Shown one piece after another: positions 3,254 through 37,380 of a stretch of DNA of 41,435 nt. The first letter of the stretch is position 1. Each line of letters opens with the position of its first letter. The stretch is from a virus. A program made the translations under genes and the position numbers. The stretch spans positions 1 through 41,435 of IMG/VR virus record IMGVR_UViG_3300010885_067782; one strand, 5' to 3'. The notes below the pieces were generated by a model. It worked only from the letters and a program-made list of their open reading frames with translations, did no database searches and was not told where the DNA came from.

Positions 3254-4116
3254 CCTTTACTCCCGCACCATTTCAGGCACTTATCCTTCCATTGTCCAGA
3301 AGAAAAATCTTTTGGTATATCTTGCTCAAGATAATCACTGTCGGGATAGTAGCAGCAAGAGCTCAATTTACCTTCATAACTTAAAAACAAACTGGGATAA
3401 GACAAATGCATACAATTTTCTATTTTAACATGATCGTTTGTATGCACATAGGTGTCAAATGGATCTCCCTTGTGCCTATCATAATTGTTTTGCTTATCCC
3501 AAGGTAAAATATCTATAGGTTCACCTGTTTTATAGTGTCTAGCACTACTGGGATAACGAGCATTTTTTACTAGCTCTATCCTTTTAAATCCTAATTTTTG
3601 ACTGGTCTTTATCACATCTTTTAACTGATGTTGGTTATGTTTAAAAGGTATAAATTGCCATACTGCTGTTCCACCAGATTTTATAAATGCTGTGGCATTG
3701 GCGATTATCTTGTTGTAATCTGTATTTTGTCTGTATACACTGTGAGTATCTGATAAACCATCTAATGTGAACCATACTTCATGATTTATATTTTTTAATT
3801 TAACTGCTAGATTACGCCACCAGTCCTCTGTTTTAAGGCTTCCATTAGTATGTATCTGTATATGTCTGATGCCTTTATTCAATACCAATTCCAAACTGGA
3901 TAAAAAATTAGTAGCTGCTATGGCATCGCCACGGTAACCGCAATATTGCACTGTTTCCAATTGGGGAAATTGATCCAAAACTTGTGCAAGCCTATCTAGA
4001 TCTAGATCAGCTTCGACAAAACCTTCTACTAATCCATATCCCTTGTCATTACGTGGACATACAGGGCAACTGGCATTACATCGGCTAGTTTGTTCTAGAT
4101 GTAACCATTTTATCAT
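3250..4116 (-). CDS. radical SAM protein with C-terminal Cys cluster
   Basis: The 288-residue protein carries the 4Fe-4S/SAM motif CNASCPVC (Cys13, Cys17, Cys20) right at the N-terminus. It continues with a half-barrel pattern (YCGYRGDA, HIQIHTNGS, WFTLDGL). The C-terminal region has several Cys (ENCMHL, KLSSCCYY, DKCLKWCG), as in SPASM/twitch-type auxiliary cluster domains. Such enzymes often modify peptides or sugars. It overlaps both neighbours by 4 nt (ATGA/GTGA), between the adenylate cyclase and the hydrolase, so co-expression is strongly implied. Whether it modifies a curli-locus product is speculation. Confidence 0.85.
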   Translation of the reverse strand: MIKWLHLEQTSRCNASCPVCPRNDKGYGLVEGFVEADLDLDRLAQVLDQFPQLETVQYCGYRGDAIAATNFLSSLELVLNKGIRHIQIHTNGSLKTEDWWRNLAVKLKNINHEVWFTLDGLSDTHSVYRQNTDYNKIIANATAFIKSGGTAVWQFIPFKHNQHQLKDVIKTSQKLGFKRIELVKNARYPSSARHYKTGEPIDILPWDKQNNYDRHKGDPFDTYVHTNDHVKIENCMHLSYPSLFLSYEGKLSSCCYYPDSDYLEQDIPKDFSSGQWKDKCLKWCGSKG

Positions 4117-6200
4117 TTAGTATTAGTCCTGAATACGCCATCCCAATCAGCACCTGGAGGATTGGCGATATATTCGTCACAGCGTTCCTGCCACATCTCA
4201 TAATAGTGATCCATCTGACCTTTAAATGCACCCATCAGATCCTTGGCCATGTTCTTGGCAACAGCAAATCTCTGAGCTTTGTATGCGTTCATCATGGTCA
4301 CATGATTGATCTTGGCCTGATTCCATTCAGGCTTGTTAGCACCCTCAGTGTTCAATACCGTGAAGATGTCCACGCCTTCTTTCTTGCCTTTAACCGCCAA
4401 GCAGTCCAAGGGGAGCGTGAAAAAATACGTTTTGACATATTCGTTGGTCTTGGGCCCGATGACCATGGCCACATGGTATGGCTTTGACTGACCCTCCAAT
4501 CTACTAGCCAGATTAACCCCATCACCAAGACAGGTGTAATCGAACCGCTGACTACTGCCCATATTACCGACGACAACAGTATCGGTGTTAATGCCCAATC
4601 CCATCCCAAAAGGAGGAATTCCCTCTGCTGTGACTTCTTTGTTGAATGCATCTAAACTTCCTAACATCTCTAGTGCTGTGCGAACAGCGTTCTTGGCATG
4701 AGCCGCATCGTCTAACGGTGCGTTCCAGAATGCCATCTGTGCGTCACCGATATACTTGTCCAACGTGCCTTCGTTTTCGATGATCTTAGCAGTCATAGCA
4801 GTCATATAACGATTCATTATCTTTGTCAAGCCCTGAACGTCTTTACCATAATGTTCACTGATGGTGGTAAACCCACGCACGTCTGTGAACATGATGCTTA
4901 GTTCTCTGCTGTCTCCCCCCAGCTTGAGCAAGTCTGGATTCTCCTGCAGCTTTTCCACCATCTTGGGACTTAGATAAGTTCCAAACTGTTTCTTTATCTG
5001 TTGCTTGAGTCTGAATTCTCGAACAAAATTGTTAAAAACACATTGGAAAAATACAAGACTACCAGAGACCAAAAGATAGCTGGCATCCAGGAGATAATTT
5101 CCATTATCGAATAGACTATTGTGTACATATATTATTCCACCTATTAGTATAGCATATAGCGGCAGTGTTGTCTTTATTCCAGCACGTGGAACGATTATGA
5201 TAAGCAATATGCTTATCAGAACCAGGGCTGCCAGCTCTGCCAAATCAGCCCAAGCTGGGCGGCTTATCGTAGTGCCGGATATCAGAGTTTGTAATGCCTG
5301 AGCTTGCAGATCATGAGCATATATTTCACCTCTGGGTGTACCAATAACTGTACCCAAACCTTCAGCAGTTAAACCAACGATGACGATCTTGTCTGTGAGT
5401 TCTGTTTTACTGGTATCATTTAATAAATCAATGGCTTCCACACGCTCGAACTTGCTGTTCTGACTGAGCCATATGCGACCGTTATTGTCTGTGGCGATAG
5501 TGGGAAACTGTGGTATACGAACCGCTTCTATGCCAGCTTCGCCAGTCTTGATCTGATAGCTGGGATCGCTGGTTGCCACACGGATGATTTCCAGTGGAAA
5601 ACTGGGATATAGTTCACCAGCCAATCTGACAATCATGGGCATACGGCGCACAACACCATCTATTTCAGGTGTGGTAGCGATTACGCCCACACCATCTGCT
5701 GCTGTGGCTAATGCAGGAATAGGACTGACTCCGCCCCGCCATGTGAATGTCCAGGGCGCAGGATCTTCTCCAATTTTAGCAACACCACGGCGAACAGAGT
5801 CTGGTTGTTGTCCTTTGACACTCACAGTCTGGGCAATCACGACGCCATTGTCTTTCAATTTTGCTGCAAAATCAGCATCGCCACCCATGCGGTCGTTTTC
5901 ACTGAACAACACGTTGTATGCTATCACGGTGGCATTTTTTTCACGTAATTTTTCTATCAGATCGGCAAACTTGTCACGTCGGGGTGGCCATTGCCCCCAT
6001 GCTTTTAGTGTGGGTTCGCCTATGTCAATCAACACGATGTCTTTGCTGACTTCTTGTGGTTGGCTGGTCATCAGATAGTCGAAGTCTTTCAACCTCAGGG
6101 TTTTAACCAGTGATGGATCTGTATATCTGACAAATAATAATGCTGTGGCTATGATGATCACCGCGCCAGTGCCAGTGATCCAGTTGATGTATTTTTCCAT
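4113..6200 (-). CDS. CHASE2-domain class III adenylate cyclase, membrane-bound
   Basis: 695 residues. Helix 1 spans about 8-26; an extracytoplasmic CHASE2 sensor follows (about 35-310: FDYLMTSQP, VLIDIGEPTL, VIAYNVLFSE, EIYAHDLQAQAL). Three membrane helices lie at about 317-393 and the class III cyclase domain at about 430-620. Catalytic residues are all present: metal Asp440 (FTDVRGFT) and Asp486 (DKYIGD), adenine-selecting Lys482 and Asp560 (LGDGVNLASR), transition-state Asn563 and Arg567. This predicts an active ATP cyclase making cAMP under control of a periplasmic signal. A good RBS (AAGGGG) precedes the ATG. CHASE2 cyclases next to FecR proteins are known in bacteria; here the pair sits in a phage curli-like operon. 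Confidence 0.93.
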   Translation of the reverse strand: MEKYINWITGTGAVIIIATALLFVRYTDPSLVKTLRLKDFDYLMTSQPQEVSKDIVLIDIGEPTLKAWGQWPPRRDKFADLIEKLREKNATVIAYNVLFSENDRMGGDADFAAKLKDNGVVIAQTVSVKGQQPDSVRRGVAKIGEDPAPWTFTWRGGVSPIPALATAADGVGVIATTPEIDGVVRRMPMIVRLAGELYPSFPLEIIRVATSDPSYQIKTGEAGIEAVRIPQFPTIATDNNGRIWLSQNSKFERVEAIDLLNDTSKTELTDKIVIVGLTAEGLGTVIGTPRGEIYAHDLQAQALQTLISGTTISRPAWADLAELAALVLISILLIIIVPRAGIKTTLPLYAILIGGIIYVHNSLFDNGNYLLDASYLLVSGSLVFFQCVFNNFVREFRLKQQIKKQFGTYLSPKMVEKLQENPDLLKLGGDSRELSIMFTDVRGFTTISEHYGKDVQGLTKIMNRYMTAMTAKIIENEGTLDKYIGDAQMAFWNAPLDDAAHAKNAVRTALEMLGSLDAFNKEVTAEGIPPFGMGLGINTDTVVVGNMGSSQRFDYTCLGDGVNLASRLEGQSKPYHVAMVIGPKTNEYVKTYFFTLPLDCLAVKGKKEGVDIFTVLNTEGANKPEWNQAKINHVTMMNAYKAQRFAVAKNMAKDLMGAFKGQMDHYYEMWQERCDEYIANPPGADWDGVFRTNTK

Positions 6201-6230
6201 ACTGGTCCCCTTGATCGTTTACTTATTATA

Positions 6231-6755
6231 TCAGTGTTTTACGTAACTGTAACCTGAGCAAGGCGGGGTAAGACATTGGATACTCATGCTGCTAGCATCA
6301 GCTGTGAGTGGATTGTCTTGTAGAGCATTGGCTGTAATGCCCGATCCCGACAGATTGAATACAAAGCTCTTGGGTGCTGAGCCAGCTTGTTGTATTGTAG
6401 CTGAGTTATTATTGTTGCTGGTAGTCTTATCCAGGTTGATGGCAGCAGTGTGATTTCCGCTACCAGTCTGGAATATATTCAAAATATTATTATTGTTGTT
6501 GGGAGCAATACTAGTGATAAAGTTAGTACCAGATTGTCCAGTAGGCGGAGTACCTATGAAAGCCATGTGAGCACCAGGACCTTCCTGGATTATAGTGAAC
6601 TGATTATTATTGCCCTGATTTAGAACAATAGCTGTCTGGTTATCGCCCATTTTCTGGTTTACAGTGATGGTATTGAGATCCCCTACCTGATCAATATAAA
6701 CTGAATCCACAGCATAAACTGGTGTGATCATTAGTAATAATAACAATCTTTTCAT
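6231..6755 (-). CDS. secreted curlin-repeat protein 2 (minor curlin-like)
   Basis: 174 residues with a short signal peptide (about 1-15, ending VYA). It has curlin-type repeats built on hydrophobic-x-Gln/Asn alternation: VYIDQVGDLNTITVNQ, IVLNQGNNNQFTIIQEG, ILNIFQTGSGNH, ATIQQAGS. Repeat spacing is less regular than in the upstream curlin, and a C-terminal tail has two Cys in a Pro context, so it may be a nucleator or anchor (CsgB-like role) rather than the main subunit. That assignment is inference. The start ATG overlaps the FecR gene stop by 4 nt. Confidence 0.8.
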   Translation of the reverse strand: MKRLLLLLMITPVYAVDSVYIDQVGDLNTITVNQKMGDNQTAIVLNQGNNNQFTIIQEGPGAHMAFIGTPPTGQSGTNFITSIAPNNNNNILNIFQTGSGNHTAAINLDKTTSNNNNSATIQQAGSAPKSFVFNLSGSGITANALQDNPLTADASSMSIQCLTPPCSGYSYVKH

Positions 6756-7873
6756 TTGCTCTGCCTTATGGTTATGACACTGCCACCTGGTTTGTTGACC
6801 TGTTGAAGTATGGGCAAACCATCTTGGTAGATGTTTACCTGAGCCGAACTATCTTTGTCAACTATGACCTGTGCAAAATGGCTAGGGGCTGCACGATACA
6901 AGTTTAGGTTGTAATCTTCCACATAATATTTGAGACCCTGTACCTTGTTGGGCTTATACTTGGGTAACATTGGATTGTCATCTTCAGCTAATGCGTTATC
7001 CAGCAAACCAGCGTTCATTAGATCGATGATATTTTCCAGGAAAGCTGAATCCAACATGTTTTGTCCCAGCCTGCTGATATCCTCCTGTAACAGATCTACA
7101 TTTAGAGCATCATATCTGAGCAGGTCTTTGTCCAGTTCGTTCTTGTCCAATATGTTCTTGCCCATCTCATCATGGGTAGCACGTTTGGGTTTGGTCAATA
7201 TCAACATATTACTTATCTGTGCATCTGTAAGTTGTAGTATAGTAGGTTTGCCTGGATTGCTTTCACGGCTCACTGTCTGAGTGCTCTGGAACATCTGATC
7301 CAATGTCACAGTCCCCATGTCTGTGGTAACTGTGATCTTACCCACCTTGCAATCTTTGGCCAGGTTCTTGTAGCCTACAGGACAACTGGGCAACAGCACG
7401 ATCAGGCTACGACCTAGTTCATCCACAGTCATACTAAAGTCAGTGCCACGAACTCCCACAGTGGCAGTGGGTGTTTCAATGCTGACACTTTGTGGATTGG
7501 CTTTAGCAATCTGACCTGATGCAAACTTAGCAGTGCCCAGAGCCATCTTGAGTCCTACCTTGCCAGCATCGCCTTTGGCAGGATCATACACAAAACTGTC
7601 TATGACCAGTTTACCATGTTCAGTTATTTTCACAGTGCTGTTGTCTTGAAAGGTGATGCTGACTTTGCTATTGGCTGTGACCACAGCATCATTCTGCTCC
7701 ACGCCTGAATCTTTGGCGCTGGGAATTACTTGTTTGTCGCGTTGAATTTCAGTAGGTCCAGTCTGTTCGGTTACCGTGCCTGCTGCTGCCTGAACATCAG
7801 TTGCCTGAACGCACAGTAATGCTGTTGTTGCTACCAACGCTCTTGATATTGACTGTTGAATCCACTGTGCCAC
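6752..7873 (-). CDS. secreted FecR-domain protein
   Basis: 373 residues. A signal peptide occupies about residues 1-29. A FecR-type beta domain follows at about 33-180 (GTVTEQTGPTEIQR, VSITFQDNSTVKITEHGKL, LKMALGTAKFASG, VSIETPTATVGVRGTDFSM), then a helical region and a C-terminal stretch with curlin-like wording (AQVNIYQDGLPILQQVN). The annotated start is GTG at 7873, overlapping the curlin gene by 77 nt; a later TTG start is possible but gives a poorer signal peptide. FecR domains sense or bind periplasmic partners; pairing with a CHASE2 cyclase two genes downstream suggests a linked envelope-signalling role. Confidence 0.85.
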   Translation of the reverse strand: MAQWIQQSISRALVATTALLCVQATDVQAAAGTVTEQTGPTEIQRDKQVIPSAKDSGVEQNDAVVTANSKVSITFQDNSTVKITEHGKLVIDSFVYDPAKGDAGKVGLKMALGTAKFASGQIAKANPQSVSIETPTATVGVRGTDFSMTVDELGRSLIVLLPSCPVGYKNLAKDCKVGKITVTTDMGTVTLDQMFQSTQTVSRESNPGKPTILQLTDAQISNMLILTKPKRATHDEMGKNILDKNELDKDLLRYDALNVDLLQEDISRLGQNMLDSAFLENIIDLMNAGLLDNALAEDDNPMLPKYKPNKVQGLKYYVEDYNLNLYRAAPSHFAQVIVDKDSSAQVNIYQDGLPILQQVNKPGGSVITIRQSK

Positions 7874-8483
7874 CTTGTGTGACTCCTATTGTGTTGCTGC
7901 CGCCTGTGACATCCACGGTTGCATCGAATCCGTTCAGACCCGCCGTGCCGGTCTGGCTGACAGTGATGGCATTGCCATTACCACCAGTGCTTGTCACACG
8001 GGCCCTTGCTCCCAGTAGATTGGTTGTTGAACTTGTTATTCCCACTGTGTTGTTGTCACCGGTTGCATCCACTGTGGCTAAACTTTTAGCACCAGATGTG
8101 ATGTTGACATTGTTGGTATTACCGGTGATATTAGCTGTAATGATTGTGTCTGTACATGCTGTGGTAGGCGCAGCACCGCAACTGGCATTCACAGTGTTGA
8201 AACTGCCAGTTACATTGCTGGTCAGCTGTGCACCATTGCCCTGTATGTTGAACACACTATTGTTATTGCTGCCTATCTGGGTTATCATTACCAGCTGGCT
8301 GTTGCCACGAAATATGGTCTTGTTTACCTCGTCACCCACAACATTGTTGCTGCCAGTCTGTGTGACATCTATCGTACTGCTACTGCCTATCTGATCGATG
8401 TATACTGTATTCTGACTTTGAGCGAACACCGGAGTGGTGGCCATAAATGATAGTGCTAGCAACAGTTTTAAAAACTGTTTCAT
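7797..8483 (-). CDS. csgA-like: curlin-repeat amyloid subunit-like protein
   Basis: 228 residues with a classical signal peptide (residues 1-21, ending VFA|QS). The mature part consists of beta-strand repeats with Asn/Gln/Gly-rich turns: VYIDQIGSSSTIDVTQTGSN, LVMITQIGSNNNSVFNIQ, ITANITGNTNNVNI, ITVSQTGTAG, IGVTQGG, VNIKSVGSNNSITV. This is the pattern of CsgA/CsgB curlins, whose repeats stack into a cross-beta fibre. One Cys pair sits mid-protein. It directly follows csgG (12 nt) in transcription order, as expected for a substrate of that pore. Confidence 0.87.
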   Translation of the reverse strand: MKQFLKLLLALSFMATTPVFAQSQNTVYIDQIGSSSTIDVTQTGSNNVVGDEVNKTIFRGNSQLVMITQIGSNNNSVFNIQGNGAQLTSNVTGSFNTVNASCGAAPTTACTDTIITANITGNTNNVNITSGAKSLATVDATGDNNTVGITSSTTNLLGARARVTSTGGNGNAITVSQTGTAGLNGFDATVDVTGGSNTIGVTQGGTVDSTVNIKSVGSNNSITVRSGN

Positions 8484-8495
8484 AGCCTTTAAACC

Positions 8496-9341
8496 TCATT
8501 TTTTATCCGTCTTTCGATTCGCTGCCGCGAGTTCTTCTGCTGTAAGTGGAGCATGTTTCCACAGCCCCTTGACAATGCCTTGTTTGATTAGATCTACCAC
8601 TGCTGCTTCGATTGCAATTCTCACAGCGTAGGTAGTAGGTTCGTTTATTGTGACACCAGCTTCGAATTCCACTGCTTTGGTGCCAGCGTCGATAAATTTC
8701 ATTAGGTTAGCACTGGTGCCTGCTGAGTAAACAGTCTTGCTGGCACCCGAACTTAGTAGTACTTCGCCAGTGTGTACACTGACCAATCTGATGATGATTG
8801 TGACCTCATCGGTACGGTATTGTGTGTTGCCATCGATACCCAGGAATCTGGCGCCGATACCACCTGATCCCACATTGCTGTCATATCCAATGACACCGCC
8901 CTGTAACATGATACCAGCCACCAACATAGGTGCCAGAGGCTTGGCGTTCTGCCCTTCATAGGTCTCACGTTGATTGCGGATCAACTGACGTTCTTTGATC
9001 AGATCGTCCAGCCCCACACGTTCCACAGGTTTGAACCATTGGCCGTTGCCTGCATCTTGCAATGCTTTGATCAGGAACACTTCTGCTCCTTGGGTGACGG
9101 CACTGCTAAAAGTGCTGAACTTGTCGTTGGGCTTGCGCTGACCGGTCTTGTCAGTGAAGCTGTAAACAGCTACCACGATGGGAGGACCATCAGGTTTGCG
9201 TAATGTGGGCAGTTCAGCCAGTCTGGGCTTACTGATGATTTCAGGCATATCGTTGGGTTCCACACTGGTAGGGGTCTTGCCTACCAAGCTGGTGCAACCT
9301 GTCAGTGCTAGTAATAATATCAGCCCTATGTTCTTGATCAA
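8496..9341 (-). CDS. csgG: CsgG-type curli secretion lipoprotein
   Basis: 281 residues from a TTG start at 9341 that overlaps the csgF stop (TTGA). A GGGAG lies about 9 nt upstream. Longer starts on this frame would run back through csgF. The N-terminus is a lipoprotein signal peptide with lipobox LTGC. The body matches CsgG layout: VVAVYSFTDKTGQRKPND, AEVFLIKALQDAG, WFKPVERVGLDDLIKERQLIR, LMVAGIMLQGGVIGYDSN-like segment, then the pore-forming strands ending EVTIIIRLVSVHTGEVL. Length agrees with E. coli CsgG (about 277). It should form the outer-membrane channel that exports curlins. Confidence 0.93.
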   Translation of the reverse strand: MIKNIGLILLLALTGCTSLVGKTPTSVEPNDMPEIISKPRLAELPTLRKPDGPPIVVAVYSFTDKTGQRKPNDKFSTFSSAVTQGAEVFLIKALQDAGNGQWFKPVERVGLDDLIKERQLIRNQRETYEGQNAKPLAPMLVAGIMLQGGVIGYDSNVGSGGIGARFLGIDGNTQYRTDEVTIIIRLVSVHTGEVLLSSGASKTVYSAGTSANLMKFIDAGTKAVEFEAGVTINEPTTYAVRIAIEAAVVDLIKQGIVKGLWKHAPLTAEELAAANRKTDKK

Positions 9342-9784
9342 AATTTGAAACTCCCTATGGGCACACTGATCTCGGTACGGTTGCCAGTGGGATCTATCAT
9401 GGTCAACTTGATCATATTTGTTGTCACATCTTTGATCCAACTGATGGTTGTGCCTTCGAAATTCATAGAACCACTTGTGCTACCATCGCTGAACATGGCA
9501 TTGCTCATCTGTAAACTCAGCTGAGCATAGATGCGGCTTTCCAAGTTATTGAGAAATTTACTGAGATTGGTGTTCTTGGCAGCAGTTGCGATAGCATCCA
9601 TTGCTGCTTGTTCTTGTTGTTTGATAGCTTGCTTGCGATTGAATTCCAGATTCTCTATGGTAAGCGCATGGCTGCTGAACCCATCACCACTAAAGCTGGG
9701 ATTTTTAAAACCAAATACTTGCTCGCTCGCCATTAAAGGGCTGGAAATGATAAAAAATACAGCAAAAGGTATAATTTTACGCAT
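9338..9784 (-). CDS. csgF: CsgF-type curli assembly protein
   Basis: 148 residues with signal peptide (1-19, ending LMA|SE). The start of the mature chain, QVFGFKNPSFSGDGFSSH, has the Phe/Asn-Pro-x-Phe-Gly pattern by which CsgF inserts into the CsgG pore. The C-terminal half ends with DPTGNRTEISVPIGSFKF, similar to the beta region of CsgF. In E. coli CsgF caps CsgG and couples secretion to nucleation. It is the first gene of the unit; translation initiation lies inside a strong hairpin (see 9786-9817). Confidence 0.9.
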   Translation of the reverse strand: MRKIIPFAVFFIISSPLMASEQVFGFKNPSFSGDGFSSHALTIENLEFNRKQAIKQQEQAAMDAIATAAKNTNLSKFLNNLESRIYAQLSLQMSNAMFSDGSTSGSMNFEGTTISWIKDVTTNMIKLTMIDPTGNRTEISVPIGSFKF

Positions 9785-20545: not shown

Positions 20546-21328
20546 ATGCATTTTGATTTAATAAGCGATCTACACATAGACTTTTGGCCTGAGTCAGAAC
20601 AGATAGATTTCAACGGCCTAGGTACCAGTTTGCTTGCTGTAGTGGCAGGCGACATCAGCATGGATTGGCAAAAGAGCTATGATAAACTGGTGGAATTGGG
20701 TCAGTATTATCGCCATGTGATCTTTGTGGACGGCAATCACGAACATGCCGAAGACCGTAATAACATAATGAAGAACTGTGCTGATTTTTATGAAAAAATC
20801 AGGCATCTGGACAATGTCACATATCTGCATCATCGTAGCAGTATCATACTGGATGACACTGCCTTCATTGGTTGCAACGGTTGGTGGACATTCGATTATG
20901 GTCAGCCAGAATTCAGCCAGGAAGAATGTTGGCAGAGATTGCTGGCCGAGTCAGATGACGAAATGTTCCAAGCAGAGGTCATGCGCTGTGCAGAACTGGA
21001 TGCTGAAAATCTGTGTATGCAAGTGCAAATTTTCAACAATGATCCCAGGATAAGGAACATCGTGATCGTCACACATACCGCACCGCTACAGCAGTTTGCT
21101 TTCATACCTGATCATCTGGCACCATATCACAAGGGTCGTGCTGGCAATAGTCGAATGATCAATGCACTACAATACAATCTGCACAACAAAGTCCGAGCCT
21201 GGTGCTTTGGTCACACTCATACTCGTTATGATGAAGTGATAAACGATATCAGATTCGTATGTCATCCCAGAGGTAGACCTGGTGAAAAATTACAGCAGGT
21301 CTATTATCCCAAACTGATAGAAGTTTAG
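20546..21328 (+). CDS. calcineurin-like metallophosphoesterase
   Basis: 260 residues, the only gene on the + strand right of 2703. Metal-site motifs in order: SDLHID (Asp8, His10), AGDIS, GNHEHAE, VTHTAP and FGHTHTRYD, giving the two-metal centre of this superfamily. A Trp-rich insert (NGWWTFDYGQ) lies mid-protein. Substrates range from nucleotides to cyclic nucleotides; because the phage also encodes an adenylate cyclase, a cAMP phosphodiesterase role is conceivable but unproven. Its stop overlaps the convergent clpS gene by 4 nt. Confidence 0.88.
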   Translation: MHFDLISDLHIDFWPESEQIDFNGLGTSLLAVVAGDISMDWQKSYDKLVELGQYYRHVIFVDGNHEHAEDRNNIMKNCADFYEKIRHLDNVTYLHHRSSIILDDTAFIGCNGWWTFDYGQPEFSQEECWQRLLAESDDEMFQAEVMRCAELDAENLCMQVQIFNNDPRIRNIVIVTHTAPLQQFAFIPDHLAPYHKGRAGNSRMINALQYNLHNKVRAWCFGHTHTRYDEVINDIRFVCHPRGRPGEKLQQVYYPKLIEV

Positions 21329-21639
21329 TCTTCTGGTTCCAGCTTGACATTCAGCGGGAAGTTGTTGCTACGTGCCAGCATGGTCACTTCCACAGCCTTG
21401 CTTTCAGCGATTTCGAATGGCAACACTGCCACGCTGGCATTGCCCTGCTCGTGGATTTTCATTGTCAGATCCATGGCACTTTTTTGATTATGGTCAAATA
21501 TTTCCATCAATACTGCGATGACGAAGTCCATGCTGGTTACATCATCATTGAGGAAAATAACACGATATCTGGGCGGTGGTGTCAGGTCCAGATTGGCGGT
21601 TACTTTGTTACGAACTTTGGTAGCTGTGTCTGTGCTCAT
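21325..21639 (-). CDS. clpS: ClpS adaptor protein
   Basis: 104 residues from ATG 21639 (ATG 21648 and GTG 21651 are possible earlier starts; RBS is weak for all). The ClpS core is clear: PPRYRVIFLNDDVTSMDFVI, VLMEIFDHNQKSA, MKIHEQGNASVAVLPFEIAE, then KAVEVTMLARSNNFPLNVKL. It contains the N-degron pocket Asn-Asp-Asp segment and the Met and His positions expected. ClpS delivers N-end-rule substrates to host ClpAP, so the phage copy could redirect host proteolysis. Confidence 0.93.
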   Translation of the reverse strand: MSTDTATKVRNKVTANLDLTPPPRYRVIFLNDDVTSMDFVIAVLMEIFDHNQKSAMDLTMKIHEQGNASVAVLPFEIAESKAVEVTMLARSNNFPLNVKLEPED

Positions 21640-21660
21640 GTTTCCCATCACTTATTTAAC

Positions 21661-21683
21661 ACAGCGGGCAAGATGCCCGCTGT
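21661..21683 (-). other. hairpin in the clpS leader
   Basis: Perfect 9-bp stem ACAGCGGGC/GCCCGCTGT with a 5-nt loop between hsp20 and clpS. It lacks a clear T-run on the minus strand. If the promoter at 21691-21718 is used, the hairpin forms the very 5' end of clpS mRNA; alternatively it ends hsp20 transcripts. Confidence 0.6.
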
Positions 21684-21690
21684 ATCTTCA

Positions 21691-21718
21691 ATTATAACAC
21701 ATCAGTTGATATATGCAA
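21691..21718 (-). promoter_or_regulatory. possible clpS promoter
   Basis: Minus strand: TTGCAT (21718-21713), 16-nt spacer, TATAAT (21696-21691), located partly inside the hsp20 3' end. Confidence 0.45.
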
Positions 21719-22130
21719 TAGCAATTTTTTGGGGTTTATCTTCTTCTGGAATATGTTGTTCCAGTTCGATGATCAGCATACCATTCTTTACTGTGGCACT
21801 CTTGACTTCCACATTGTCAGCCAATTGCCAACTGCGCTCGAATTTGCGAGTGGCGATACCACGGTACAGGAAGTTGTTTTCGTTAGGTGTACGAATCTCA
21901 CCTGTGACGCTCAACAATCCTTTGTGCAAGGTCACATCCAGATCTTCTTGCGTGAAACCAGCCACAGCCACTTCGATGCTGTAGTTGTTTTCTTCATTCT
22001 GGATGATGTTGTAGGGAGGGTAACCTGTGCTGTTGGTCACTGTGGTTGTGCTGTGTAGGCGATTGAAAATGTCATCAAAACCCACGCTTACACGGTGAAA
22101 GTCATGAAGTTGCTGTAGTAGATTAGTCAT
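21702..22130 (-). CDS. hsp20: small heat shock protein Hsp20
   Basis: 142 residues, preceded by AAGGAG. The alpha-crystallin domain is complete: YPPYNIIQNEENNYSIEVAV, AGFTQEDLDVTLHKGLLSV, FLYRGIATRKFERSWQLADN, and VKNGMLIIELE with the conserved Asn-Gly-x-Leu. It resembles IbpA-type chaperones. It would hold unfolded proteins during infection; Hsp20 genes are frequent in T4-like marine phages. Its leader carries two inverted repeats (22130-22155 and 22157-22192). Confidence 0.93.
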   Translation of the reverse strand: MTNLLQQLHDFHRVSVGFDDIFNRLHSTTTVTNSTGYPPYNIIQNEENNYSIEVAVAGFTQEDLDVTLHKGLLSVTGEIRTPNENNFLYRGIATRKFERSWQLADNVEVKSATVKNGMLIIELEQHIPEEDKPQKIAIAYIN

Positions 22131-33012: not shown

Positions 33013-33489
33013 TTAAATGCGCCTATAAAAATAATGGCCGCCGATCTGTGCCACTTTGACCAACCGTTTGTCACGGAACGGACGATTGTTGAATGAGGTG
33101 GCGCCATTGCTGACATCTGCATGGAAACCCAGCATGACACTTTCAGCTATCACCATGGCTTCTTCATAAAGCATCTGGCTGGCAATCTTGTTGTTTTTTC
33201 TGCAAGCCCAGGTGAACTGGCATCCTACTTGTTGGTAATTATGCTGATAAACCACACCGCATACATTTTGAGGGTATACACCGCTGTTCACACGGTTTAG
33301 CACCACTTTTGCCACAGCGATGCGCCCGGCCACAGGTTCATTACCCGCTTCGAAATAGATGGCCTTGGCCATACATTCCACTTGCTTGGTATCAGGAGCG
33401 GCAGGTGCTGCCCAACTGATCCATTCGCCTGCTGATGCTGGCGATAAGGTCGCCAGCACCACAGACAATACTGCTATCATCTGTCTCAT
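33013..33489 (-). CDS. SleB-type cell wall hydrolase (probable lysin) with signal peptide
   Basis: 158 residues from ATG 33489. Signal peptide 1-20 (MIAVLSVVLATLSPASA|GE). The Hydrolase_2/SleB domain shows CMAKAIYFEAGNEPVAGRIA with the catalytic Glu47, VAKVVLNRVNSGVYPQNVCG, VVYQHNYQQVGCQFTWAC and GATSFNNR with the end HYFYRRI. It cuts the glycan strand as a lytic transglycosylase-type enzyme. A Sec signal would let it reach the periplasm without a holin, or it is held until activation. The start overlaps nothing; RBS is weak. Confidence 0.88.
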   Translation of the reverse strand: MRQMIAVLSVVLATLSPASAGEWISWAAPAAPDTKQVECMAKAIYFEAGNEPVAGRIAVAKVVLNRVNSGVYPQNVCGVVYQHNYQQVGCQFTWACRKNNKIASQMLYEEAMVIAESVMLGFHADVSNGATSFNNRPFRDKRLVKVAQIGGHYFYRRI

Positions 33490-33735: not shown

Positions 33736-33986
33736 TAGTTCAGTGGCCCGTTCTGTTTCTAGGTGGAGCCATACCCAAGGTGTTATGCAGCTAGTGCATA
33801 ATCCTGTGCAACGAAGTTATCGTTAGCATTTGTCATTTTGCTTTCTGTCTCCGCTAGTCTTTATCACACCTGTCGATCCTATTTCGCCCCCAACAAAGAT
33901 ACACCATTAGTGTAACTATGGTGGAGGCGCCGGGTACCGCCCCCGGGTCCAGTGAGCCTATTCCACTTCGCCTCAACGACATAAGC
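33736..33986 (-). ncRNA. ssrA: circularly permuted two-piece tmRNA
   Basis: Reading the minus strand, an acceptor piece comes first: T-stem CCGGG/CCCGG (33946-33930), then CGCCTCC, A, and CCA (33921-33919). After a 27-nt spacer, the coding piece starts at 33891 with GGGGGCG, which pairs over 7 bp with CGCCTCC, followed by GACAGG, typical of tmRNA. A reading frame at 33827-33783 encodes the tag ANDNFVAQDYALAA and stops with TAA. Permuted order and an ANDN...ALAA tag match alphaproteobacterial tmRNAs. The outer ends are estimates. It should rescue stalled ribosomes and tag proteins for Clp proteases. Confidence 0.92.
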
Positions 33987-33992
33987 ATATTA

Positions 33993-34021
33993 TTTATAGC
34001 AGCATCTGTTACAGGTGTCAA
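33993..34021 (-). promoter_or_regulatory. tmRNA promoter
   Basis: Minus strand: TTGACA (34021-34016), 17-nt spacer, TATAAA (33998-33993). The -35 overlaps the stop of the large structural gene. Start would be near 33986. Confidence 0.75.
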
Positions 34022-37000
34022 CTATTCTTTTTAGTTGCTGGATCATAAAGACCATCTGGACCAACACCACCCCAAGCCTGTGTGAGGTTACGATCCAGTC
34101 CAGTGTCGGTATTCTGCAATAATATATCAAATACTGATTTAAACTGGTCCAACAATCCACTGATGGCACTGCCCAACAGGGTGTGTGCCAATGCTGTGCT
34201 GTTTGCTGGAGTCAACTGACCCAACAATTCCATGACTCCGTAAACCATCTGATCTGTAAAGAATGGATTATCATATTTGGTAGCACCGATGTTGCCATAC
34301 AATACTTTGTTTATGATGGCCAGCAAGTTGGCCACAAATACGTTGTTGTTTGTCAACAATAGTCCTTTGGCGGTAGCAGTGGCGAATATGGTCTTGCCTT
34401 TGTCCAATCCGATCAGATAGGCTGCATTGCCTTCGAATCTGACATTGCGATTCAGGATATCTGACAGTATGCTCAGACCCAGGCCTTGACGGACATTCTC
34501 GTTGACATTCTGCCACATTATATCATAGAAGGCTTCGTCTGCCTGTGCTGGTAGCAGAGCATTGGGATCGATACCAAAGTTACGCAGATTGCTGTTGCGT
34601 ACTTCGATATAGGCAGCATTGGGATCTGCTGGCAACACAGTATCTTGTAGATTGAATGGAGTATAAGCCTGCGGTCCTGTATACATTCCCTGATAAAAGC
34701 CCAGTGGATCACGATAGTATTGGCTTTGTGGATAGTTGAATCTTTCGGTGTTCACGCCCAGAGGTTGTAATATGTCTCTGTTATTGCCCATGGCGATAGC
34801 ACCACGGATGGCATCACCATACAGATTATCTGCTGCGATGCGTTTCATGTAGTCACCGATCTGACCATACCCAGTTTGTTGAGAATATGTGGGCAATGTG
34901 TTAGCAAACAAATAGGCACTCATGGGACTGTTCAACACATTTGTATCTGTGAGTTTGATACCAAATTTGTCACACAGATATGCTTCTTTGATGATCTGAG
35001 CACAACTGGCGTTGTGTGCTTTTTCACTCGCAGCAATGGTGGCCTGTAACTCTGGATCTTGGATGTTGGCTATAACTGTCAACTGTGCTTCGATATAAGG
35101 ACAATAAGCTGTGATCAAATCATCCAGTGTTTCATATTGAATGCCATCGAATGGAGTACTGCCAAAGTTTTGTACAGTGTTTGTACCATTGGCGCCTGTG
35201 ACATACAAGCTGGATGTTATCATTACAAACCCTTTGGTAGCACCAGCGCCATTTTCGCCACCATCACTGGGTGGTTGTGTATAGTAACCACTGATGGCAT
35301 TACGCAATATCTGTATGCGACGGATCAGTTCTATACCTTCTGGTAATTTACCGATGGCTTGGTTAGCTGCGGTGATATAAGGCAATGTGTCTGTGTGTAC
35401 ATAACCAGCGGCTGTGCCTATGAAATCGGCCATGGTAATTTCGCCCACTGTGCCGCCACCCCAACCAAATGTGCTGTTGATCAATTTAATGGTAGCTGGA
35501 TCATAGGGAGTGCTCAGCTGGCTAAGATGATTTAGATTTAGACCTGGATCGATCTTGGCCAGTGCTGCTGCCACATCTGCGAATGTAGTAGCACGAACGA
35601 TGCCTATACTGATGAACTGCTGACCTAGATCATGCCAGTTTTTGGCCACGCTGCTCTTGCTGAAGTTGGGACACATGTAGGAAAAACTGGTAAGTTCACC
35701 CAGATTGTAAATCTGTCTGTTCAGATTGAAGTTTACGCTCACTGCTCCCAGTGCTTGTTCATCTGTGATGCCATCCAGTATTTTTTGTACCGCTGCATCA
35801 TTTTGAGGAGTATCCAGTCCGGCAACTGGTATCTGTGCAGCTATCAGAGCCTGTGTCAAACCCGTGACTGTTCCCAGTCCAGCAGCCATGATCTGATAGC
35901 CCACATTAGCAGGAGCCATTATTCTCAGCAAGTTACTGATGTTGAATATACCCATGGCCAACATGTCTTTGGCAGCACCGTTCAGGTTTCTGGTCAAACT
36001 GGTGGTACCGAAACTCATAATGTCGTTCCAGTTGTGGAAGTTGTTGCCCAAACCACCTGGGTTCACAGCACCAAATTTGGCACCAGCCGCATCGTTGGCA
36101 TGGCCGATCATGGTGTTAGCCACCTGTGCAAATGCACTGGCACTGTTTATGTTGTTGATAAAGTTTGTCAGGTTACCACCTGGTCCTTTACCCAATATGT
36201 TATTGCCCACATTCTGGATCATACCCACGGTGCCACCATTTGCTGCCCACTGTGCCACCAGATTGGGCATGTTGAATCCAGGTGCAGTGGCAATGGGATG
36301 CATCAGGTTGCTCAGGCCCTGTGTGACACCAGTGACCAATGCCTGTGATAGGATATTACTGATGGCAGGACTGATGTTGCCCATGATGCTGCTCAATCCA
36401 CTGCTGGCTCCCAGATTACCGATGGCATTCATTGCTGCACTACCGATAGCACTGAAGGCACCACCAACGGCTCCGCCAGCAATGTTCATCAATATGCCTG
36501 TGAGACTGATGGGTCTGCCACTGAGTACACTTGCCACAACCGATCCCAAACTACTGGCCATTGCTTGTGTAACACCATTTACCACACCGCTGACCACACT
36601 GGAACCCAGACTGCCGGCTGCGAAACCCATGGCACCACTGATACTTGTGGCCACACCACTGAGCAATCCTGCTGCCGCAATACTGGCAATAGCCCCGATG
36701 GCAGCACCGATACAGCCTGCACTGGAATTGCCATTTTTAGTGGGCGGAGTGGCAACATTTGTGCCGCCGCCCTGTAATGCACTCATACCGGCCTGCATAC
36801 CACCTGAGGCATTACTCCCGCCCAGAGCAGCTAACCCGCTCTGTGCATCACCACCACTGCCTGCATAGGCTTGTAGGAATCCACTGTCTCTGCTGGTCAT
36901 ACCATAGTTGCCGTATGCTGCGGGATTCAAACTGTCCACACCAGTACCACCTGGATCACTGGGACCACCGGCATCTCGCCAATTTTTAATGAAGGGATTG

Positions 37001-37380
37001 AGACTGCCATTGCCTCCCATGGCTGCTGATGTGGCCACGGATTGCACTTCAGGGCTGGCGTATGCCAAGCTGGGTTCTTTGGCAACAGCAGTACTGAAAA
37101 ACATGCTTTGTTGGATCTGTAACTGGGTGCTGGCAGTGGCATAATCCCAGGTTTCTCCGGGATTCACAGGTCTGGTAGCCAGTGTGTTGGGATCCACATA
37201 ATAATGGAAACCTCCAATGGCTAATCCACTACTTTTGCTGGGATCACTAGCAAAGTTATCCATATGGGTGGACATTGTACCGCCCTGTTTGGGAAAACCC
37301 TGAGTATTGACCCACCATACCGCATTATCCTGTGCTGCTTTGGGTGGAAGTGTGTTTGTGATTACTGCTGAACCTGCCAT
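34018..37380 (-). CDS. large Gly/Ala/Ser-rich virion structural protein
   Basis: 1120 residues. N-terminus MAGSAVITNTLPPKAAQDNA. A flexible, Gly-rich region (about 140-220) leads to a long Ala/Gly/Ser/Ile helical stretch with small-residue repeats (about 225-350: GAAIGAIASIAAAGLLSGVA). The rest is mixed, ending in a polar tail. Size, composition and position beside the PAAR-like and second structural gene suggest a baseplate-associated or internal virion protein. The small-residue-rich stretch could enter a membrane at DNA delivery. The family is not identified. Confidence 0.7.
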   Translation of the reverse strand: MAGSAVITNTLPPKAAQDNAVWWVNTQGFPKQGGTMSTHMDNFASDPSKSSGLAIGGFHYYVDPNTLATRPVNPGETWDYATASTQLQIQQSMFFSTAVAKEPSLAYASPEVQSVATSAAMGGNGSLNPFIKNWRDAGGPSDPGGTGVDSLNPAAYGNYGMTSRDSGFLQAYAGSGGDAQSGLAALGGSNASGGMQAGMSALQGGGTNVATPPTKNGNSSAGCIGAAIGAIASIAAAGLLSGVATSISGAMGFAAGSLGSSVVSGVVNGVTQAMASSLGSVVASVLSGRPISLTGILMNIAGGAVGGAFSAIGSAAMNAIGNLGASSGLSSIMGNISPAISNILSQALVTGVTQGLSNLMHPIATAPGFNMPNLVAQWAANGGTVGMIQNVGNNILGKGPGGNLTNFINNINSASAFAQVANTMIGHANDAAGAKFGAVNPGGLGNNFHNWNDIMSFGTTSLTRNLNGAAKDMLAMGIFNISNLLRIMAPANVGYQIMAAGLGTVTGLTQALIAAQIPVAGLDTPQNDAAVQKILDGITDEQALGAVSVNFNLNRQIYNLGELTSFSYMCPNFSKSSVAKNWHDLGQQFISIGIVRATTFADVAAALAKIDPGLNLNHLSQLSTPYDPATIKLINSTFGWGGGTVGEITMADFIGTAAGYVHTDTLPYITAANQAIGKLPEGIELIRRIQILRNAISGYYTQPPSDGGENGAGATKGFVMITSSLYVTGANGTNTVQNFGSTPFDGIQYETLDDLITAYCPYIEAQLTVIANIQDPELQATIAASEKAHNASCAQIIKEAYLCDKFGIKLTDTNVLNSPMSAYLFANTLPTYSQQTGYGQIGDYMKRIAADNLYGDAIRGAIAMGNNRDILQPLGVNTERFNYPQSQYYRDPLGFYQGMYTGPQAYTPFNLQDTVLPADPNAAYIEVRNSNLRNFGIDPNALLPAQADEAFYDIMWQNVNENVRQGLGLSILSDILNRNVRFEGNAAYLIGLDKGKTIFATATAKGLLLTNNNVFVANLLAIINKVLYGNIGATKYDNPFFTDQMVYGVMELLGQLTPANSTALAHTLLGSAISGLLDQFKSVFDILLQNTDTGLDRNLTQAWGGVGPDGLYDPATKKNS

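Follow-up and report, generated by a model that had tools for sequence, protein, structure and literature searches.

The tmRNAs of the mycobacteriophages Bxz1 and Wildcat and of Bacillus phage G are probably standard one-piece forms. A two-piece tmRNA was described in phage Melnitz in 2022 by Buchholz and colleagues (PMC9004378), and 53 of 133 distinct phage tmRNAs are two-piece, nearly all of them from aquatic phages (PMC9004378); a tmRNA database of 2025 holds 79 phage sequences (PMC11915505). Permuted tmRNAs also occur in at least 120 viral contigs in each of three IMG/VR scans and in the isolated phages HTVC008M, Phosso and RcRudolph. Given the Melnitz report, these contigs and these isolates, the gene described here, carried by a 41,435-base IMG/VR fragment of a large environmental phage (the window, meaning the whole stretch of DNA that was analysed), belongs to a known kind, which is common and known from other aquatic phages. 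The initial annotation of this DNA had called a two-piece form on a phage unusual, a view that does not survive the published count or the viral-contig scans.

A complete permuted tmRNA gene

Rfam and ARAGORN together place a complete circularly permuted tmRNA gene on the minus strand of the window, at 33742-34025. The Rfam covariance model alpha_tmRNA (RF01849) matches over its full length from 34025 to 33742 with 135 bits (E 7.3e-37), reaching 34025 because this model takes in the promoter region, and tmRNA_permuted (RF04321) matches from 33981 to 33783 with 113 bits; both scores pass the gathering cut-offs (50 and 47, respectively) and both matches reach the model ends. The gene and its neighbours are laid out as follows:

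34018..37380, minus strand: 1120-aa protein upstream of the tmRNA, within a tail-gene stretch and syntenic in relatives
33992..34021, minus strand: sigma-70 type promoter TTGACA-N17-TATAAAT (pattern search and conservation)
33919..33986, minus strand: acceptor piece, with the 5' strand of helix P2, the T arm, the acceptor 3' strand CGCCTCC, A73 and CCA (RF01849/RF04321, ARAGORN, covariation)
33892..33918, minus strand: intervening spacer of 27 nt with a short hairpin (ARAGORN boundaries)
33742..33891, minus strand: coding piece, with the acceptor 5' strand GGGGGCG, D-like loop, 3' strand of P2, tag frame and 3' hairpin, and no PK1 (Rfam, ARAGORN, hairpin fold, comparison of pre-tag lengths)
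33783..33827, minus strand: tag reading frame ANDNFVAQDYALAA followed by TAA (ARAGORN)
33013..33489, minus strand: cell wall hydrolase (endolysin-like) downstream of the tmRNA (PF07486, 74 bits; PHROG endolysin)

All 7 bp of the acceptor stem GGGGGCG/CGCCUCC pair, with G3-U70 and A73, which are alanine identity signals. The T arm reads CCGGG GGCGGTA CCCGG, helix P2 (UGUC/GACA) joins the acceptor and coding pieces, and the encoded CCA ends at 33919 in the ARAGORN segment coordinates. ARAGORN calls a permuted tmRNA whose tag ANDNFVAQDYALAA is followed by a stop; the frame has an alanine resume codon and a hydrophobic -AA end (...ALAA). The coding piece closes with a terminal hairpin, folded as UGGCUC/GGGCCA, near 33742. 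Model score, piece order, acceptor stem, P2 and tag frame all place the gene in the permuted alpha-type class, and the viral record together with synteny with a terminase-bearing relative (G001, below) makes it a phage-encoded ssrA. The initial annotation, which had read the locus as a phage-encoded, circularly permuted tmRNA of alphaproteobacterial type and named a covariance-model search as its check, is thus borne out by RF01849, RF04321 and ARAGORN, with the gene on the minus strand; the acceptor piece ahead of the coding piece, the 7-bp pairing, the CCA and the in-frame tag that it listed are all present.

Conservation, promoter and genomic setting

Every one of 204 distinct viral permuted tmRNAs forms the acceptor stem. 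Their final selection was made on the D-loop motif, T arm and CCA and not on acceptor pairing, although most of these loci were retrieved by patterns that fix part of the 5' strand, which by itself makes much of the set invariant. Compensatory changes nevertheless occur at acceptor pairs 5, 6 and 7, while G3-U70 and A73 are invariant in the 204; the informative cases include GGGGCAU/AUGCUCC in contigs L124 and L126, GGGGACG/CGUCUCC in L125 and GGGGGUG/CACCUCC in HTVC008M, among others. Loss of this pairing in homologues, which the initial annotation had named as the outcome that would count against it, is therefore not seen. Helix P2 and the T stem covary as well, among 54 relatives of the same length class. 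A further stem at the spacer ends, which RF01849 does not model, covaries among 163 viral spacers (1189 of 1304 cells paired vs 807 in shuffles), and the minimal spacer of the window keeps 7 of its 8 pairs.

The promoter, TTGACA-N17-TATAAA (34021-33993), is unique in the window, had no chance match in 100 shuffles, and recurs upstream of the tmRNA in L129, G001, L126, L125 and Melnitz. A scan demanding T at position 6 of the second hexamer returned no site in the window because the site reads TATAAA. The T4 late-promoter motif, TATAAATA, also lies inside the stretch 33992..34021. The 5' end of the acceptor piece is placed at 33986 by inference from the promoter position, and the end at 33986 and the coordinates given by the initial annotation fit the transcript that would be expected from this promoter.

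The tmRNA is held in a conserved neighbourhood. Homologues of the upstream 1120-aa protein, which matched nothing in Pfam or PHROG, adjoin the tmRNA in the viral contigs G001 and G003 (44-48% identical), and in G001 the hydrolase has a 61% homologue at the corresponding position. Both contigs show the same succession of tail gene, tmRNA and hydrolase, which makes the tmRNA an established component of this phage lineage. G001 spans 183 kb and is closely related to the window (NrdB 95.5% identical); its terminase shares 54% identity with that of Pseudomonas jumbo phage PA5oct and 51% with that of Sinorhizobium phage Phosso. T4 gp23 was sought in the window and in G001 and found in neither; the terminase was found in G001 instead. 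In addition to NrdB, the window carries a glutaredoxin-like protein and a tail-fibre match (Pfam, PHROG). A search for DNA similarity to phage records gave a sole match, 32 bases in RcRudolph, which is part of RcRudolph's own permuted tmRNA.

Two other gene groups in the window deserve mention. A curli block at 4113-9784 (csgF, csgG, a curlin-repeat protein, FecR, a second curlin-like protein and a CHASE2 cyclase) is arranged as it is in Melnitz and HTVC008M. The clpS and hsp20 genes (ClpS PF02617, Hsp20 PF00011) sit side by side at 21325-22130; they are real, but the link to the tmRNA drawn in the initial annotation is loose and finds no support as a unit, the two sites being about 12 kb apart and ClpS occurring in only 4 of 19 records: it is common to the close relatives G001 and G003 and to G010, while Melnitz, HTVC008M and most tmRNA-bearing contigs are without it.

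Proposed function and its alternatives

We hypothesize, with considerable confidence, that this is a functional phage ssrA of the permuted alphaproteobacterial type that acts as a supplement to host tmRNA; the gene itself probably works. Building on anatomy, pairing, covariation, promoter, synteny and a search that found no phage smpB, we infer the following course of expression, processing, charging, tagging and benefit. Host RNA polymerase would read the gene's own sigma-70 promoter into one precursor, which host RNase P would cut at the 5' G of the coding piece, while 3' maturation at the encoded CCA would complete the acceptor piece; the 27-nt spacer is presumably removed on processing. 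The acceptor stem and helix P2 would keep the two remaining RNAs joined. Recognition of G3-U70 would let host AlaRS charge the phage tmRNA, which host SmpB and EF-Tu would then deliver wherever a broken mRNA has stalled a ribosome. Translation would pick up again in the frame ANDNFVAQDYALAA, giving a tagged product that, with its ...ALAA end, would pass to a Clp-type protease. The likely benefit would be to keep ribosomes free while mRNA is degraded in infection. A phage-encoded SmpB partner was considered and set aside: none occurs in the 16 tmRNA-related phage records, the full Melnitz and HTVC008M genomes among them, though the window is a 41-kb fragment and smpB could lie elsewhere in the phage.

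The tag gives little guidance as to the host. The initial annotation had taken it as a clue to an alphaproteobacterium, but the exact tag ANDNFVAQDYALAA occurs in none of 84,980 GTDB species genomes, so that the attempt to name a host from it came up empty, and Melnitz carries an alpha-type tmRNA yet infects a gammaproteobacterium (PMC9004378); on both counts it makes a weak pointer to the host and no safe marker. The same exact tag is found in one other viral contig, L129, despite a quite different spacer.

The shared use of host SmpB that follows if the phage has no smpB of its own also suits a different reading, in which the phage RNA is a decoy that binds host SmpB, AlaRS or ribosomes and so dampens host trans-translation or alters the tag. 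There is a precedent in mycobacteriophage DS6A, where an RNA consisting of the tRNA-like domain only resembles tmRNA inhibitors, and a tag seen in no GTDB genome would agree with it. A decoy, however, would require the tRNA-like part only, and here the full tag frame is retained along with the resume site and the 3' hairpin, and an -AA end recurs among many different viral tags; we regard a decoy as unlikely.

Two further readings would deprive the gene of a phage function altogether. Because ssrA is a common integration site, the gene could be an inert remnant left when a prophage sitting at host ssrA excised imprecisely, a route proposed for Melnitz (PMC9004378); this is very unlikely for a gene that is complete with both pieces, whose promoter is conserved, whose helices covary and whose synteny is kept over large divergence. 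Searches aimed at other genes brought no integrase to light in the window. It is harder still to credit that the window is a fragment of bacterial chromosome misclassified as viral, with the tmRNA as a host gene. The alpha_tmRNA model is indeed that of cellular alphaproteobacteria, and no capsid or terminase gene was found in the window, but its relative G001, with NrdB about 95% identical, has a phage terminase, the window has phage-type genes and a curli block in common with isolated phages, the tag is in no cellular genome, and the short pre-tag form occurs in one GTDB record only, which is phage-like. Judging by its PHROG tail-fibre and endolysin matches, its curli block as in Melnitz and HTVC008M and the G001 terminase, the contig is viral. 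The supplementary phage ssrA thus remains our preferred reading.

The PK1-less form among known systems

The window departs from the usual design ahead of the tag. PK1 upstream of the tag, which is usual but lies outside the Rfam family definition, is lacking: the stretch from the D-like loop to the tag measures 43-44 nt vs 63 in the Rfam consensus, and the PK1 positions of the model are deleted, RF04321 modelling only tRNA-domain pairs. PK1 was once considered necessary for tagging. E. coli tmRNA nonetheless tags efficiently with PK1 swapped for a hairpin or single-stranded RNA (PMC3968760, PMC4236655), so the PK1-less RNA of the window can still be functional. Its absence is a subgroup trait: viral pre-tag lengths fall into three classes of about 27, 43-47 and 60-65 nt, and the short pre-tag pattern, which demands exact flanks, matches at least 120 viral contigs vs a single match in the 84,980 GTDB genomes, on a contig that itself looks phage-like. 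Somewhat more speculatively, at what we judge to be slightly less than even chances, phage two-piece tmRNAs may form a phage-specific structural class in which PK1 has been lost and the pre-tag region reduced (27 or 43-47 vs about 63 nt), and in some lineages the spacer may serve as a cassette that houses either a short conserved ORF or a structured insert of another kind. The window would then be a minimal-spacer member.

Two other groups of viral tmRNAs, and not the window, have a conserved short ORF of 35-42 residues in the spacer (contigs L275, L277, L296, L307, L330, L306; L329, L309, L252, L294). In one group it reads MDEVLLWQFRQRCVEYICINNYSIYHARLFMMGAK plus stop, with an AAGGAG start site, and ends at the TAG of GGGGGCGAAATAG; in the other it reads MKHYMNWFRKLYKEYGLFAALMYTHFNAKHYNLDGSYK plus stop and lies entirely within the spacer. 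Differences gather at third codon positions (45 vs 20 and 20; 12 vs 4 and 4). At the Phosso locus (L346, PV764938 349596-350198) the spacer runs to about 400 nt; it contains long complementary arms, and Rfam matches nothing there apart from the tmRNA. The spacers of L129 (1761-1839) and L126 fold cloverleaf-like with a T-arm-like hairpin, possibly as decayed tRNAs. A tRNA gene nested in the spacer was rejected, since the tRNA mode of ARAGORN found none in 110 long viral spacers and Rfam none in L129 or L126; a known ribozyme was likewise rejected, with no Rfam ribozyme in 20 long-spacer loci or in the Phosso spacer.

Two isolated phages show how such genes escape notice. HTVC008M, a Pelagibacter phage (NC_020484 / KC465899), has an unannotated permuted tmRNA at 145161-145370 (RF04321, 90.6 bits), and in the Rhodobacter phage RcRudolph (OP009285) the permuted tmRNA at 49133-49421 is annotated as the hypothetical protein RCRUDOLPH_61. 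The set of phage ribosome-rescue RNAs therefore exceeds the annotated record, to which the window adds a clear example, and the PK1-less form, with its at least 120 viral contigs and one phage-like GTDB record, amounts to a natural experiment on which tmRNA elements tagging can do without.

Set beside known systems, the window resembles Bxz1, Wildcat and phage G in that ssrA is phage-encoded, in a different host group. With the cellular two-piece tmRNA of alphaproteobacteria (RF01849; Caulobacter) it has in common the piece order, G3-U70 acceptor, T arm, P2, the resume site and tag frame ANDN...AA and the promoter position; in contrast, the RF01849 consensus has 63 nt from D-like loop to resume triplet, with PK1, and a longer part after the tag, against 43-44 nt and no PK1 in the window. 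HTVC008M is an isolated phage with a permuted tmRNA and the same curli block, but differs in its short tag, ANFNEYALAA, and in its acceptor, GGGGGTG/CACCTCC. In Melnitz, a Methylophilales myophage, the spacer is about 140 nt vs 27 nt, the gene occupies a different genomic place, and a glutamine riboswitch lies just downstream, whereas Rfam gives no riboswitch match in the window; such a riboswitch also lies beside the viral permuted tmRNA of L176 (838-886), as reported for Melnitz. Melnitz is nevertheless like the window in its permuted alpha-type ssrA, its TTGACA-N17-TATAAA promoter, the ALAA end of its tag and its csgF-csgG-curlin-FecR-curlin-cyclase block.
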